Assembly: GCA_905182785.1 (NCBI GenBank)
Contig: CAJJDF010000025.1
Location: 1-41,948 of the forward strand
Source: an uncultured Flavobacteriales bacterium
Lineage (GTDB): Bacteria > Bacteroidota > Bacteroidia > Flavobacteriales_D > CAJJDF01
Reading direction: 5' to 3'
Length of the DNA stretch: 41,948 bases
The notes beneath the pieces are model-generated. The model saw only the letters and a list, made by a program, of their open reading frames with translations. It did no database searches and was not told where the DNA came from. Shown piece after piece: positions 13,405 through 16,725 of the stretch. Made by a program: the position numbers and the translations under genes. Every line of letters starts with the position of its first letter. The stretch's first letter is position 1.

Positions 13405-14070
13405 CTACCTTCTGTTATGGATGTGTTTCTCCATTTGTGCCAACTGTGATTTTATTTCTGGGTTGGTTGGGTTACACGCTTTAGCTTTTTTAAACAAATT
13501 GGTAGCCTGAGCAAATCTTCTTGATTGTAACTCTATTCCACACAATTGAAGGTAAGCTGTTGCTTTGCTGTCTTTGTCAGCCAATCCTTTGTCTAGAGCT
13601 ATTCTAAGGTTTTTCTTAGCTTCATTCTTTTTGCCATTTTGCATGGCAATCATTCCCAATTGCAAATAAGAACTTCCTTCGCTTCCTGCACCAAGGACTT
13701 TACTTTTGCTTTTTATACTCTTGTTCATTAGCTTTTCAGCCCCTTCAAAATCTTTGTTTGCCATTGCCATGTTAGATTGTAACATGTAAAAACCTTGTCT
13801 GATTGGTTTGAATAACAACCTTGGAAAAATAACTGTTTTAATATATTTTTGAGCGGACTCCATATCGCCAGCTTGTATTGCTTCTTGAATAAAGCGGATA
13901 GGGCCAAAAAATATGTGAGAACCTACTGCGATAATCATTAAAATAAGTGAGAACCACCACAAGCCATCTAGCTTGGTAAAGCTAAGAGCGATTGTAGAAA
14001 GGATAAGTACGATTCCTATATAGAATCTAAATTCTAATAGTTTTTTATAAATGGTCATCAATATCATCAT
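13405..14070 (-). CDS. Membrane protein with tetratricopeptide repeats
   Basis: The 221-residue protein has two predicted membrane helices near the N-terminus (roughly residues 15-33 and 38-57, the latter containing WWFSLILMIIAVGSHIFFG). A soluble region with TPR-like helical pairs follows, for example SSYLQLGMIAMQNGKKNEAKKNLRIALDKG and QSRRFAQATNLFKKAKACNPTNPEI. Such a layout suggests a scaffold anchored in the inner membrane. The function is unknown. Three ATGs (codons 1, 2 and 5) are possible starts; the first is shown. It appears to have its own promoter (TAAATTTG at 14099-14106) and shares a terminator with accD. Confidence 0.8.
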   Translation of the reverse strand: MMILMTIYKKLLEFRFYIGIVLILSTIALSFTKLDGLWWFSLILMIIAVGSHIFFGPIRFIQEAIQAGDMESAQKYIKTVIFPRLLFKPIRQGFYMLQSNMAMANKDFEGAEKLMNKSIKSKSKVLGAGSEGSSYLQLGMIAMQNGKKNEAKKNLRIALDKGLADKDSKATAYLQLCGIELQSRRFAQATNLFKKAKACNPTNPEIKSQLAQMEKHIHNRR

Positions 14071-14155: not shown

Positions 14156-15238
14156 TTACTTCACTTGATAAGAATAATATCCCCCTTTATTTTTAATTTT
14201 TCTGTAGATGGCTTGTGCTTCTTTTAGTTTATCGCTATTTTCTAAGCTATTTGCTTTGAACCATTGGGCGTCTTCAAAGAAAAAATCAAAGCCATTTATC
14301 ATAGCTTTATCAAAATAAGGAATAGCTTCTTCGTATTTTTTTTGATAGAATAAAGCATACCCAATATAAAATTCAGCATTGGCATCTTTGGGGAAATGAG
14401 TTAATATGATTTTAAAATTTTCAATAGCTTGAGCATAGTTATGCTCTTTCATTTGAAAAAGGCTGTTTTTCAATTGTTCTTTATAAGTGATTACCCTCTC
14501 TATTATCCCATTTCCTATGTCTATTCCGTTTTCATCTTTATTAGGTTTACTTGCGTCAATTCCACTTAGTTCCCTTTTTACAGGAATGGTGTTGGTGTAA
14601 ATAACAGAGTAATCTATAGCTAGAAAGTCATAATATAACAAGGCCTTTGTCTTAGCCTTATAGGCTGTATAATCGGTTTTTTGTTTAATCTCTATCGGGT
14701 TCAATTCCATTTTTGGAATCTCAAAAAAATCTCTTTTTGGGATTGTCTCTTCTTCGGTTTTAGGTGATTCAGCTTTTTCTTTTTTCTTTTTTATTCTGGT
14801 AACAGGAACTACAATTTCTTTTTCAGTTATTTCTGGTTTTATTATTTCAATAATCTCTTCTTGTTTTTCTTCCTCTTCTTGAGGAATAACTTGTGCAATT
14901 GTTGTGTTTTCTATTTCTAGTTTTGGCGAATTGAATATAATTACTACCACCAAAGAAAGGATAGCTAATACACTAAGAGGAATCCATACTTTTGATACTT
15001 TATTCGTTTTGAATGCAGGAATGTTCCCAATAGCTTTAGGGAATTCATCAAAACCTTCTGTGGCACCTGCCAAAAACTCATCTTTAGCCTTCAGGCTTTC
15101 AAAGTCTTGCAGTTCTTTGCCAGAAAGCTTGCCTTGGTAATAGCTTTTAATAAGCTCTCCCAAGTTTTTGCTATCTATGTTGGAATTTGTTTTCATTGTA
15201 TTTCCGTTATTCATAATTAAATGCCCATTATGGGCCAT
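14156..15238 (-). CDS. Anti-sigma-like single-pass membrane protein with C-terminal TPRs
   Basis: The 360-residue protein has a cytoplasmic N-terminus with a LGELIKSYYQGKLSGKELQDFESL helical segment and the GATEGFDEF sequence, one membrane helix at about residues 84-103, a Glu/Lys/Pro-rich linker (about 108-165) and a TPR-like C-terminus (NSLFQMKEHNYAQAIENFK, EFYIGYALFYQKKYEEAIPYFDKA). This layout, with the gene 24 bases after an ECF sigma gene, fits a membrane anti-sigma factor or co-regulator of Bacteroidota. It lacks the HCC Zn motif of classic anti-sigmas, so the assignment rests on context. Codons 9 and 15 are alternative ATG starts. A small stem (15223-15227 with 15231-15235) covers the first ATG. 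Confidence 0.7.
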   Translation of the reverse strand: MAHNGHLIMNNGNTMKTNSNIDSKNLGELIKSYYQGKLSGKELQDFESLKAKDEFLAGATEGFDEFPKAIGNIPAFKTNKVSKVWIPLSVLAILSLVVVIIFNSPKLEIENTTIAQVIPQEEEEKQEEIIEIIKPEITEKEIVVPVTRIKKKKEKAESPKTEEETIPKRDFFEIPKMELNPIEIKQKTDYTAYKAKTKALLYYDFLAIDYSVIYTNTIPVKRELSGIDASKPNKDENGIDIGNGIIERVITYKEQLKNSLFQMKEHNYAQAIENFKIILTHFPKDANAEFYIGYALFYQKKYEEAIPYFDKAMINGFDFFFEDAQWFKANSLENSDKLKEAQAIYRKIKNKGGYYSYQVK

Positions 15239-15262
15239 CTTTTTTTGTTTAGTGAAATCAGT

Positions 15263-15820
15263 TTAACCATTAAGATTTAGCTCAAGGTTTCTTTTTCCAT
15301 TTTGTATGCTACTTTTTACTTCCTTTAAGTTCAAGCCAGTTTCCTCAGCAATTTGACTGTAACTTTTGTTTTGGAGGTAAAATAATTCAATACAAACTCT
15401 TTGGTTTTCTTTTAGTTTGGGGATAAATTCCTCAAGTTTTGTAAGTAACAATTCTTTTTCTTTGTGTTTTTCGGCTTCATCCTCTTCTTGTTCTAGAGGT
15501 TCTGAATCGATAGGGGTTTTGTATATTTTTTTAGTCTTTCGCAATTCCATCAGACATTGGTTTTTTGTAATTTGATACAACCAAGGTTTAAAATTTCGCA
15601 CTTCGTTTTTATTTAGTTCAGAGATGAGTTTTTCAAAAACTTGCATTAAACTATCTTGCGCATCAGCAATATTTTTGAGGTATTTCAAGCTTACACCCAT
15701 CACTAAAGGAGAATAGCGAACATAAAGTTCTCCAATATATTTTTGGTCGGTAGACTCTTTGTAAAGGAGAACAATATTTTCATCCGTAAGGGATTTTATA
15801 TGTTTTCGAGTTATTCTCAA
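15263..15820 (-). CDS. ECF-type RNA polymerase sigma factor
   Basis: The 185-residue protein has sigma-70 region 2 (LYVRYSPLVMGVSLKYLKN then AQDSLMQVFEKL, and FKPWLYQITKNQCL) and region 4 (LKENQRVCIELFYLQNKSYSQIAEETGLNLKEVKSSIQNGKRNL), joined by an acidic linker. The length is typical for ECF sigmas. The only start that fits is TTG at 15818-15820, since an in-frame stop lies three codons upstream and the next ATG is inside region 2. It lies 27 bases after a stand-alone TonB-plug protein and 24 bases before an anti-sigma-like gene, all on one strand, so a regulatory operon is likely. It probably directs transcription in response to an envelope signal; the target genes are unknown. Confidence 0.88.
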   Translation of the reverse strand: MRITRKHIKSLTDENIVLLYKESTDQKYIGELYVRYSPLVMGVSLKYLKNIADAQDSLMQVFEKLISELNKNEVRNFKPWLYQITKNQCLMELRKTKKIYKTPIDSEPLEQEEDEAEKHKEKELLLTKLEEFIPKLKENQRVCIELFYLQNKSYSQIAEETGLNLKEVKSSIQNGKRNLELNLNG

Positions 15821-15847
15821 GTTTTTTTATTTGGTTTAAAGTTAAGC

Positions 15848-16579
15848 TTATTCGTAAGTAATTCCCATTTCTGCTACTTTTTGGTTGTAGAGGTCAAAGA
15901 AGTTTTTTGTTTCAATTTCAATCACACCACCAGAAGTATCTCCATATTTTGCAGGAAGGCCTCCTATATAGGCTGAATAAGATTTGATAGCAGCAGCAGG
16001 GTAAGAAGGTACAGATCCTGTTATTTTCATTCCATCAAGGTATGTAATAACTCCATTGCTACGAGAGCCTCTAAAATATATTTCTCCAGTTCCCTCATTA
16101 AAAGTAAAAGCACCTTCACCTACAACTTGTAATAACTGTCCAGTATTTCTTAATACCGCCATTTCTTTCAGTTTTTCTGCTCCAATCCTTGGTTTATTAA
16201 CTTCATATGGGTTAAGAACCATTGTATTTGAATAAATTTTAACTTCTTTCATGAGTCCTATAGAAAGAAAAACAGTATCTCTCAATGCTATTTGACCCGC
16301 TTTAACTTCAATTGGTAGCTTTGTACTCTCTTTTCCAATATATGAAACAGTTAATGTGTATATTCCTGGCTGTAAAGGTTTAATGGTGAATTTTCCGCTA
16401 AAATCGGATAAATCTCCAATTGTATTCCCTGCATATGAAATACTTGCTGTTGCAGAAAATAAGGGTTCATTTTCATCATAATCCCAAATTAGTCCTTTTA
16501 TCTCGCCTGTTCCTTGACTCATTCCTGAGAATCCTAAACTAAGAAGTAATCCTAATAATAGAGTTGTAATTGTTTTCAT
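15848..16579 (-). CDS. Secreted carboxypeptidase-regulatory-like plus TonB-plug protein without a barrel
   Basis: The 243-residue protein has a signal peptide (about residues 1-21), a CarboxypepD_reg-like beta-sandwich (about 26-110: DFSGKFTIKPLQPGIYTLTVSYIG) and a TonB-receptor plug-like domain (about 120-235: LRNTGQLLQVVGEGAF, IYFRGSRSNGVITYLDGMKITGS, IGGLPAKYGDTSGGVIEIETK). It ends cleanly at a stop where the roughly 600-residue outer-membrane barrel of a SusC/TonB receptor would begin. The following sequence is the sigma gene, so no barrel remnant exists downstream. It is probably periplasmic or surface-associated. It leads the likely operon with the sigma and anti-sigma-like genes. It could be a sensor domain or a surviving piece of a receptor. 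Confidence 0.82.
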   Translation of the reverse strand: MKTITTLLLGLLLSLGFSGMSQGTGEIKGLIWDYDENEPLFSATASISYAGNTIGDLSDFSGKFTIKPLQPGIYTLTVSYIGKESTKLPIEVKAGQIALRDTVFLSIGLMKEVKIYSNTMVLNPYEVNKPRIGAEKLKEMAVLRNTGQLLQVVGEGAFTFNEGTGEIYFRGSRSNGVITYLDGMKITGSVPSYPAAAIKSYSAYIGGLPAKYGDTSGGVIEIETKNFFDLYNQKVAEMGITYE

Positions 16580-16725
16580 CTTGTGTTGTATTTATAAAAT
16601 TAATAATTGTTTTACCGGTCTTTGGTAATAAGATGCAAACGGGTTATTAATTCCATAAAAATAATTAGATTTCTTTTTATTACTTCCCTTTTAGAATGTC
16701 ATTTTTTATGAATGGGAAAGCCTTA

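Follow-up and report, generated by a model that had tools for sequence, protein, structure and literature searches.

The part of FecA that contacts its anti-sigma factor is an STN-type signalling domain, and Bacteroidota depend on dozens of TonB/SusC receptors that bear an N-terminal extension (NTE). To our knowledge, little is known of how these bacteria monitor their outer membrane. Here, we analyse a stretch of 41,948 nucleotides from an uncultured Flavobacteriales bacterium (contig CAJJDF010000025.1; the whole stretch is hereafter called the window), which encodes in one cassette a secreted protein with the NTE and plug domains of a TonB receptor and no barrel, an extracytoplasmic function (ECF) sigma factor, and a membrane anti-sigma factor ending in a TPR domain. 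Among the closest described systems, the NTE or CarboxypepD_reg domain has been assigned a role different from that of STN (PMC7782687), the domains of the Dma anti-sigma factors of Bacteroides span from the outer membrane to the cytosol (PMC13088901), and the Plug protein of the type 9 secretion system (T9SS) closes the outer-membrane channel SprA in Flavobacterium (PMC10994853). As judged from sequence comparisons, the cassette of the window makes up an ECF regulon in which the barrel-less plug is one core, secreted member, tied to the TPR anti-sigma factor by co-presence, promoter and linkage, and such a plug appears to accompany this sigma/anti-sigma switch nearly always in many Bacteroidota.

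Domain architecture of the cassette

The cassette consists of three complete minus-strand open reading frames (ORFs) of 243, 185 and 360 amino acids (aa), with intergenic gaps of exactly 27 and 24 bases. Its features are as follows.

15848..16579, minus strand: barrel-less plug protein, 243 aa, with a Sec signal peptide and no lipobox Cys (ORF, Pfam, profile and fold match)
16253..16507, minus strand: NTE/CarboxypepD_reg domain of the plug protein, residues 25-109 (PF13715; matches to the structures of the SusC NTE and the transthyretin-like (TTL) domain of carboxypeptidase D)
15893..16222, minus strand: complete TonB plug domain, residues 120-229, followed by a tail of about 14 residues and the stop codon (PF07715, profile and fold)
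15263..15820, minus strand: ECF sigma factor, 185 aa, TTG start, regions 2 and 4 (Pfam and NCBIfam sigma70-ECF)
14156..15238, minus strand: anti-sigma factor, 360 aa, with a predicted cytoplasmic three-helix domain resembling the anti-sigma domain (ASD), one transmembrane (TM) helix, a long disordered linker, and a predicted periplasmic beta segment and TPR domain
15044..15172, minus strand: anti-sigma domain, residues 23-65, three helices; its zinc ligands H..CxxC are kept in many relatives and lost in the window copy
14930..14989, minus strand: TM helix of the anti-sigma factor, residues 84-102, hydropathy peak 2.88
14600..14650, minus strand: 'LxVxDYxxLY' beta segment directly before the TPR domain, a candidate plug contact, largely limited to the anti-sigma factors of plug-bearing genomes
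14165..14485, minus strand: TPR domain of the anti-sigma factor, residues 252-358, plug-associated subtype (Pfam TPR; model pLDDT about 90)
16631..16658, minus strand: ECF-type promoter TTATGGAA-N15-CATCT (-35 ATGGAA, -10 CATCT), ending 51 nt before the plug ATG

The plug protein matches CarbopepD_reg_2 of Pfam with an E-value of 1.7e-11 and Plug with one of 1e-4, marginally below the cut-off by itself, and Plug (PF07715) is present in 10/10 family members (best 1.6e-11). A profile of ten relatives spans the NTE and plug of solved TonB receptors (PDB identifier 9gbc, residues 7-233, E 9e-19; SusC; BT1763; RagA), and its alignment to these stops at the last residue of the plug domain (229). In the structure model, the plug domain of a receptor can be superposed on residues 120-226 (Z-score 9.8, 103 aligned residues), and residues 25-109 match NTE/transthyretin-like domains, such as the SusC NTE (PDB identifier 9hfj, Z 11.2) and the TTL domain of carboxypeptidase D. 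Since the profile covers the whole NTE and plug of solved receptors and the model superposes on them, the protein is a complete plug and not a fragment. No 22-strand barrel is present within its 243 residues, which end about 14 residues past the plug domain.

The sigma factor has regions 2 and 4 only (Sigma70_r2, PF04542, 1.5e-10; r4_2, PF08281, 1.8e-11; NCBIfam sigma70-ECF, 5.8e-26), with a family-specific SxIQNGKRN motif at the end of region 4. The model of the anti-sigma factor has a three-helix N-terminal domain, for which weak, sub-threshold zf-HC2 matches were obtained in 9/10 chosen relatives; apart from these, Pfam finds TPR alone, and a FecR domain is absent. The N-terminus of the anti-sigma factor is predicted to lie inside, and the TPR region is predicted to be periplasmic because the flanks of the single TM segment carry net charges of +4 on the N side and -4 on the C side; therefore, this region would be the sensor side. 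On these grounds, the pair is a member of the ECF/ASD kind, and sequestration of the sigma factor by its partner is predicted. The initial annotation had described three minus-strand genes spaced by 27 and 24 bases, comprising a secreted CarboxypepD_reg and plug protein without an outer-membrane barrel, an ECF sigma factor and a single-pass TPR membrane protein. All of this is borne out by the intact ORFs, by the agreement of Pfam and NCBIfam for the sigma factor, by the Pfam, profile and fold matches of the plug protein, and by the one TM segment and the Pfam TPR match of the anti-sigma factor; its designation of the TPR part as an 'output' region does not stand, given the predicted periplasmic location.

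A two-TM TPR protein is encoded on the minus strand at positions 13405-14070 of the window, 85 nt 3' of the anti-sigma gene. We considered it as a fourth member of the operon and rejected it, as it adjoins the cassette within the genus only.

Recurrence, promoter and candidate regulon

A protein search over 149 genomes of the class yields two main kinds of plug relatives, namely TonB receptors of about 1,210-1,310 aa and barrel-less proteins of 230-310 aa. The full-length kin are nearly universal, and one is present in the genome of the window (G000:C24). In the tree, the full-length receptors, which are encoded away from the cassettes, form a group (branch support 96/95) that excludes all but a few of the short plugs; the latter are not resolved as a single clade, and the window branch is long. 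Across the class, the short plugs keep a constant end point past the plug domain and intact frames. Co-directional plug-sigma-anti-sigma loci (L038-L043, L045-L047) are found alongside cassettes with a divergent plug (L048, L049, L051, L053, L073, L190, L252, L253, L258). The homologue search that the initial annotation had proposed thus turned out in its favour, since across many families of the class the barrel-less form stands beside this kind of sigma/anti-sigma pair. No strong match to the anti-sigma factor was found beyond the class in a phylum-wide search. The anti-sigma factor is present in the cultivable Fluviicola.

The association also emerges when loci are gathered by the sigma factor alone: among 80 named genomes, nine have a short plug (236-284 aa, E<1e-60), all 9/9 of these have the TPR anti-sigma factor at E<1e-50, and sister sigma/anti-sigma pairs without a plug carry other periplasmic parts. 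The genomes surveyed are often draft metagenome-assembled genomes (MAGs). A survey of 60 genomes from the order of the window shows both the anti-sigma factor and the short plug in 29, the anti-sigma factor alone in none, the plug alone in six and neither in 25 (Fisher 1.5e-11, a value that ignores shared ancestry); three of the six plug-only genomes (G019, G173, G185) do have the anti-sigma factor at the profile level. The two genes share a contig in 22/29 of these genomes, in most cases at a distance of 0.6-0.7 kb; among the seven genomes without such linkage, two have the genes near contig ends. The anti-sigma factors of plug-bearing genomes have a common TPR subtype (profile score of at least 88), mostly with the LxVxDYxxLY segment, whereas those of sister systems score at most 77 and do not have the segment. 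Nine of the plug-type loci served to train the hidden Markov model of the subtype and do not count as independent; outside these nine, plug-type loci still outscore other anti-sigma factors, except some of families f39 and f2. Of three apparent exceptions to the subtype, L155 and L157 are closely related (82-87% identity) to G196, where the plug is not linked, and L178 is a more distant relative.

The promoter provides a further tie. The conserved form of the window promoter, TTTATGGAA-N15-CATCT, lies 51 nt 5' of the plug gene, and the pattern TTATGGAA-N13..16-CATCT has a single match in the window against 0.02 expected. The upstream regions of plug genes in relatives from the genus, family and order have TTTTATGGAA-N14/15-CATCT in common, and a pattern search of 12 genomes found 30 sites, compared with 12 for a reversed control. 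The promoter precedes most of the examined co-directional cassettes across the class. In the families with divergent cassettes, its -10 element is of the CGTC type, and it lies before the plug in 9/9 cases and before the sigma gene in 6/9. Unlinked f2 plugs have it in six cases (L054, L331, L332, L333, L335, L336) and not in two (L334, L337), and it precedes 0/8 full-length receptors. With GGAA at -35 and CATC/CGTC at -10, the promoter is ECF-like and differs from the TAnnTTTG box of the flavobacterial primary sigma factor; a CGT -10 box has been attributed to ECF sigma factors in F. psychrophilum (PMC9723704). Apparently, the cassette sigma factor uses the ATGGAA-N15-CATC/CGTC promoter and is autoregulated, an assignment made by position and covariation.

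The promoter pattern search led to a second gene in five genomes, which encodes a secreted protein of about 440 aa with an NTE-like domain and a conserved region of about 320 aa that has no match in Pfam, NCBIfam or the PDB. In the genome of the window, this gene is unlinked to the cassette (G000:C68:4874-6202; L301, L362), and in G136 it stands directly behind the anti-sigma gene on the same strand (L046). With a weight matrix trained solely on 20 cassette promoters, 24/30 loci of the 440-aa gene, some of them near-identical, score above the best of 108 unrelated background ORFs, and 19/25 do so when the five discovery genomes are omitted. Its co-occurrence counts with the plug are 33/2/1/24 in the order and 23/1/8/117 in the class. 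In G115 and G133 (L352, L353), the 440-aa gene has the CGTCTTA variant of the -10 element, as do the cassettes of those families. Thus, the recurrence of the promoter at cassettes, on divergent arms, before moved plugs and before the 440-aa gene suggests an autoregulated ECF regulon that counts the plug among its core members. By pattern searches, exact promoter sites in the genome of the window precede the plug gene, the 440-aa gene and the gene for a 254-aa 'CHENWNEM...' protein (G000:C72; L290, L373:5009-5773), which bears cysteine in its N-terminal part and also contains a CarboxypepD_reg domain. Other single targets in relatives include an NTE-VWA-like protein, a DUF4139 (MuiA-like) protein with an NTE and NTE-bearing TonB receptors; these share the NTE theme and are not yet conserved targets.

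Several side observations were made on these genes and their relatives. The 440-aa protein of family f22 (L352/L378, L379, L383) is without the NTE domain, and proteins similar to the 254-aa protein occur in G153 (L298) and G155 (L297). The promoter also lies 16-17 nt ahead of genes for DUF4139/DUF4140 (MuiA-like) proteins into which a CarboxypepD_reg domain is inserted (L281 in G161, L296 in G153). A family of TonB receptors of about 1,250 aa (G000:C24:48378, which is L058, and L059-L064), followed by a secreted protein of more than 1,100 aa, comprises the nearest relatives of the plug that have a full barrel. L344 (G162) encodes two tandem barrel-less plugs, the second alone with the promoter, and the sigma and anti-sigma genes about 3-4 kb onward. 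The sole full receptor beside a related sigma/TPR anti-sigma pair, of 807 aa, is encoded upstream of it at L186, in a Bacteroidales MAG. Sister ECF/anti-sigma pairs are found with a divergent CarboxypepD_reg protein of about 620-690 aa (L156, L161, L169, L173, L174, L187, L203, L206, L210), and the two of these that were read (L156, L173) also have VWA-like sequence; some sister anti-sigma factors themselves contain a CarboxypepD_reg-like stretch (e.g. L153, L161). The f39 loci L050 and L052 have unlinked short plugs beside a gene for an M13-like peptidase, and GTGTGGAAT...GCGTTCT upstream of L050 and L055 resembles a promoter variant, as judged by eye. Short plugs L057, L065, L066, L067, L069 and L074 of families f5 and f16 are without the promoter.

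Possible roles of the plug protein

We hypothesize, with a probability of roughly 0.58, that the plug protein works in the periplasm together with the TPR side of the anti-sigma factor. A contact between the two is suggested because the anti-sigma factor is always accompanied by the plug in the order (29/29), has its own TPR subtype and carries an extra segment; the two may signal directly. The anti-sigma factor would keep the sigma factor at the inner membrane until the outer membrane is perturbed. Such a perturbation, which most likely concerns how TonB/SusC-type receptors are assembled or plugged, would alter what the periplasmic TPR region binds and lead to release of the sigma factor. The freed sigma factor would then transcribe the genes of the plug, the sigma factor itself, the anti-sigma factor and the 440-aa protein, and free plug protein would bind the LxVxDY/TPR region of the anti-sigma factor. 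The switch could be set by the level of the plug, or by what occupies it, be it orphan barrels or a different ligand, such that the plug would act as a periplasmic sensor or adaptor with feedback rather than as part of a ligand importer. Several observations weigh against such a role. The confidence of the structure models is modest (pLDDT 62 for the plug protein and 60 for the anti-sigma factor), and the class survey includes anti-sigma factors without a detected short plug in G030, G066, G083 and G137, those of G030 and G137 being weak matches. In f39 and f2, the plug and sigma genes lie apart, with a clear promoter copy before 0/4 f39 plugs, and families f5 and f16 have short plugs without a recognised anti-sigma factor, which also fits an effector role.

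That role, in which the circuit is the same and the plug does not signal, is the leading alternative, though less likely than not in our view. As an output of the regulon, the plug would then be a stand-alone periplasmic stopper for outer-membrane barrels, which it would cap, refill or chaperone; SusC or TonB receptors that have had their own plug ejected or unfolded are examples. Plug genes in a divergent or unlinked position still have a sigma promoter of their own, f5 plugs without a recognised anti-sigma factor do occur with the 440-aa protein, SusC plugs lie outside the barrel in closed states (PMC7782687), and a separate Plug protein seals the T9SS translocon (PMC10994853), all of which would suit a stopper; the order-wide company of plug and anti-sigma factor and the distinct subtype and segment of the latter, as described above, suggest contact. 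A wider proposal, that of an outer-membrane quality control across Bacteroidota, in which free plug reports empty, unplugged or misassembled barrels through the anti-sigma TPR and the released sigma factor makes more plug for resealing along with a new family of secreted NTE proteins, is still more doubtful. The plug could also serve a dedicated separate barrel encoded elsewhere, forming a two-piece TonB transporter; its plug domain is complete and the short 'PLID' linker that joins it to the NTE resembles that of the full-length receptor family, but no barrel gene was found at the cassette loci or among recurrent sigma-promoter targets, and the full-length receptors examined are without the promoter, making such a split receptor quite improbable. 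As candidates for a stand-alone barrel partner, the neighbours of 620-715 aa of some short plugs were read as M13 peptidases or TPR proteins, not barrels. The joint presence of an ECF sigma factor, a membrane anti-sigma factor and a TonB-receptor-derived protein recalls classic surface signalling of the FecA/FecR/FecI type with a receptor trimmed to its signalling side. We hold this very improbable, given that a Pfam scan finds STN (PF07660) in 0/10 of the plug protein and nine relatives, that there is no FecR domain, that the NTE differs from STN in role and fold (PMC7782687), and that the plug gene itself lies behind a sigma-type promoter. The cassette described in the initial annotation stands as a real, apparently autoregulated ECF system, and the FecA/FecR-style detail does not. 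It had also entertained a relic in which the barrel was lost, and the nearest full-length kin are indeed receptors of about 1,250 aa, one of them in the same genome. That the plug gene is a decaying, truncated receptor is nonetheless the least probable reading, contradicted by recurrence, by the constant clean ends, which the annotation had taken, with the tight spacing, as favouring function, by the intact frames, by the separate branching and by the conserved promoter.

Relation to known envelope systems

The circuit points to a widespread, apparently undescribed pathway for sensing or repair of the outer envelope. It offers a defined sigma factor, anti-sigma factor, promoter and short target list centred on NTE-bearing secreted proteins, with a plug domain that would work apart from any barrel and with promoters predicted for cultivable species such as Fluviicola. 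It may thus be a handle on two questions, the function of NTE domains and the monitoring of barrels and plugs. A literature search for barrel-less plugs with an ECF sigma factor returned nothing matching, though the sigma factor may already have an ECF group number. No plug/NTE protein of this type has been described among the F. johnsoniae subunits of the beta-barrel assembly machinery (BamG/H/M/P). Similarity to the SprA-sealing T9SS Plug was not detected in PDB sequence or fold searches, an absence that is not proof, and we did not retain a T9SS-linked Plug or SigP system, to which no sequence link was found and for which no T9SS genes were recognised at the cassettes.

The cassette shares with FecA/FecR/FecI, and with the STN-SusC/FecR-like ECF systems of Bacteroides, the grouping of an ECF sigma factor, a membrane anti-sigma factor and a TonB-receptor-derived protein in one unit with periplasmic input. 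It differs from them in having no barrel, STN or FecR, an anti-sigma factor of ASD-TM-TPR order, a plug behind a sigma-type promoter and no transporter at the locus. Like SusC/RagA and other NTE-bearing TonB-dependent transporters, the plug protein has a signal peptide, an NTE and a plug in the same order, and unlike them it stops shortly after the plug domain. The resemblance to the zinc-type (ASD/ZAS) stress-response pairs lies in the N-terminal anti-sigma domain, the single TM segment, the sigma-anti-sigma operon and the autoregulated ECF promoter; unlike in those pairs, the periplasmic half consists of a beta segment and TPR, the operon has a secreted NTE-plug protein, and the window copy is without zinc ligands. 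No description of this periplasmic half and secreted partner was found in the literature searched. Finally, as in the Dma/Das anti-sigma systems of Bacteroides (PMC13088901), a Bacteroidota-specific ECF/anti-sigma pair is linked to the outer membrane, but unlike Dma, the anti-sigma factor of the cassette has a soluble TPR domain at its C-terminal end, and the part that resembles a receptor is secreted as a protein of its own.

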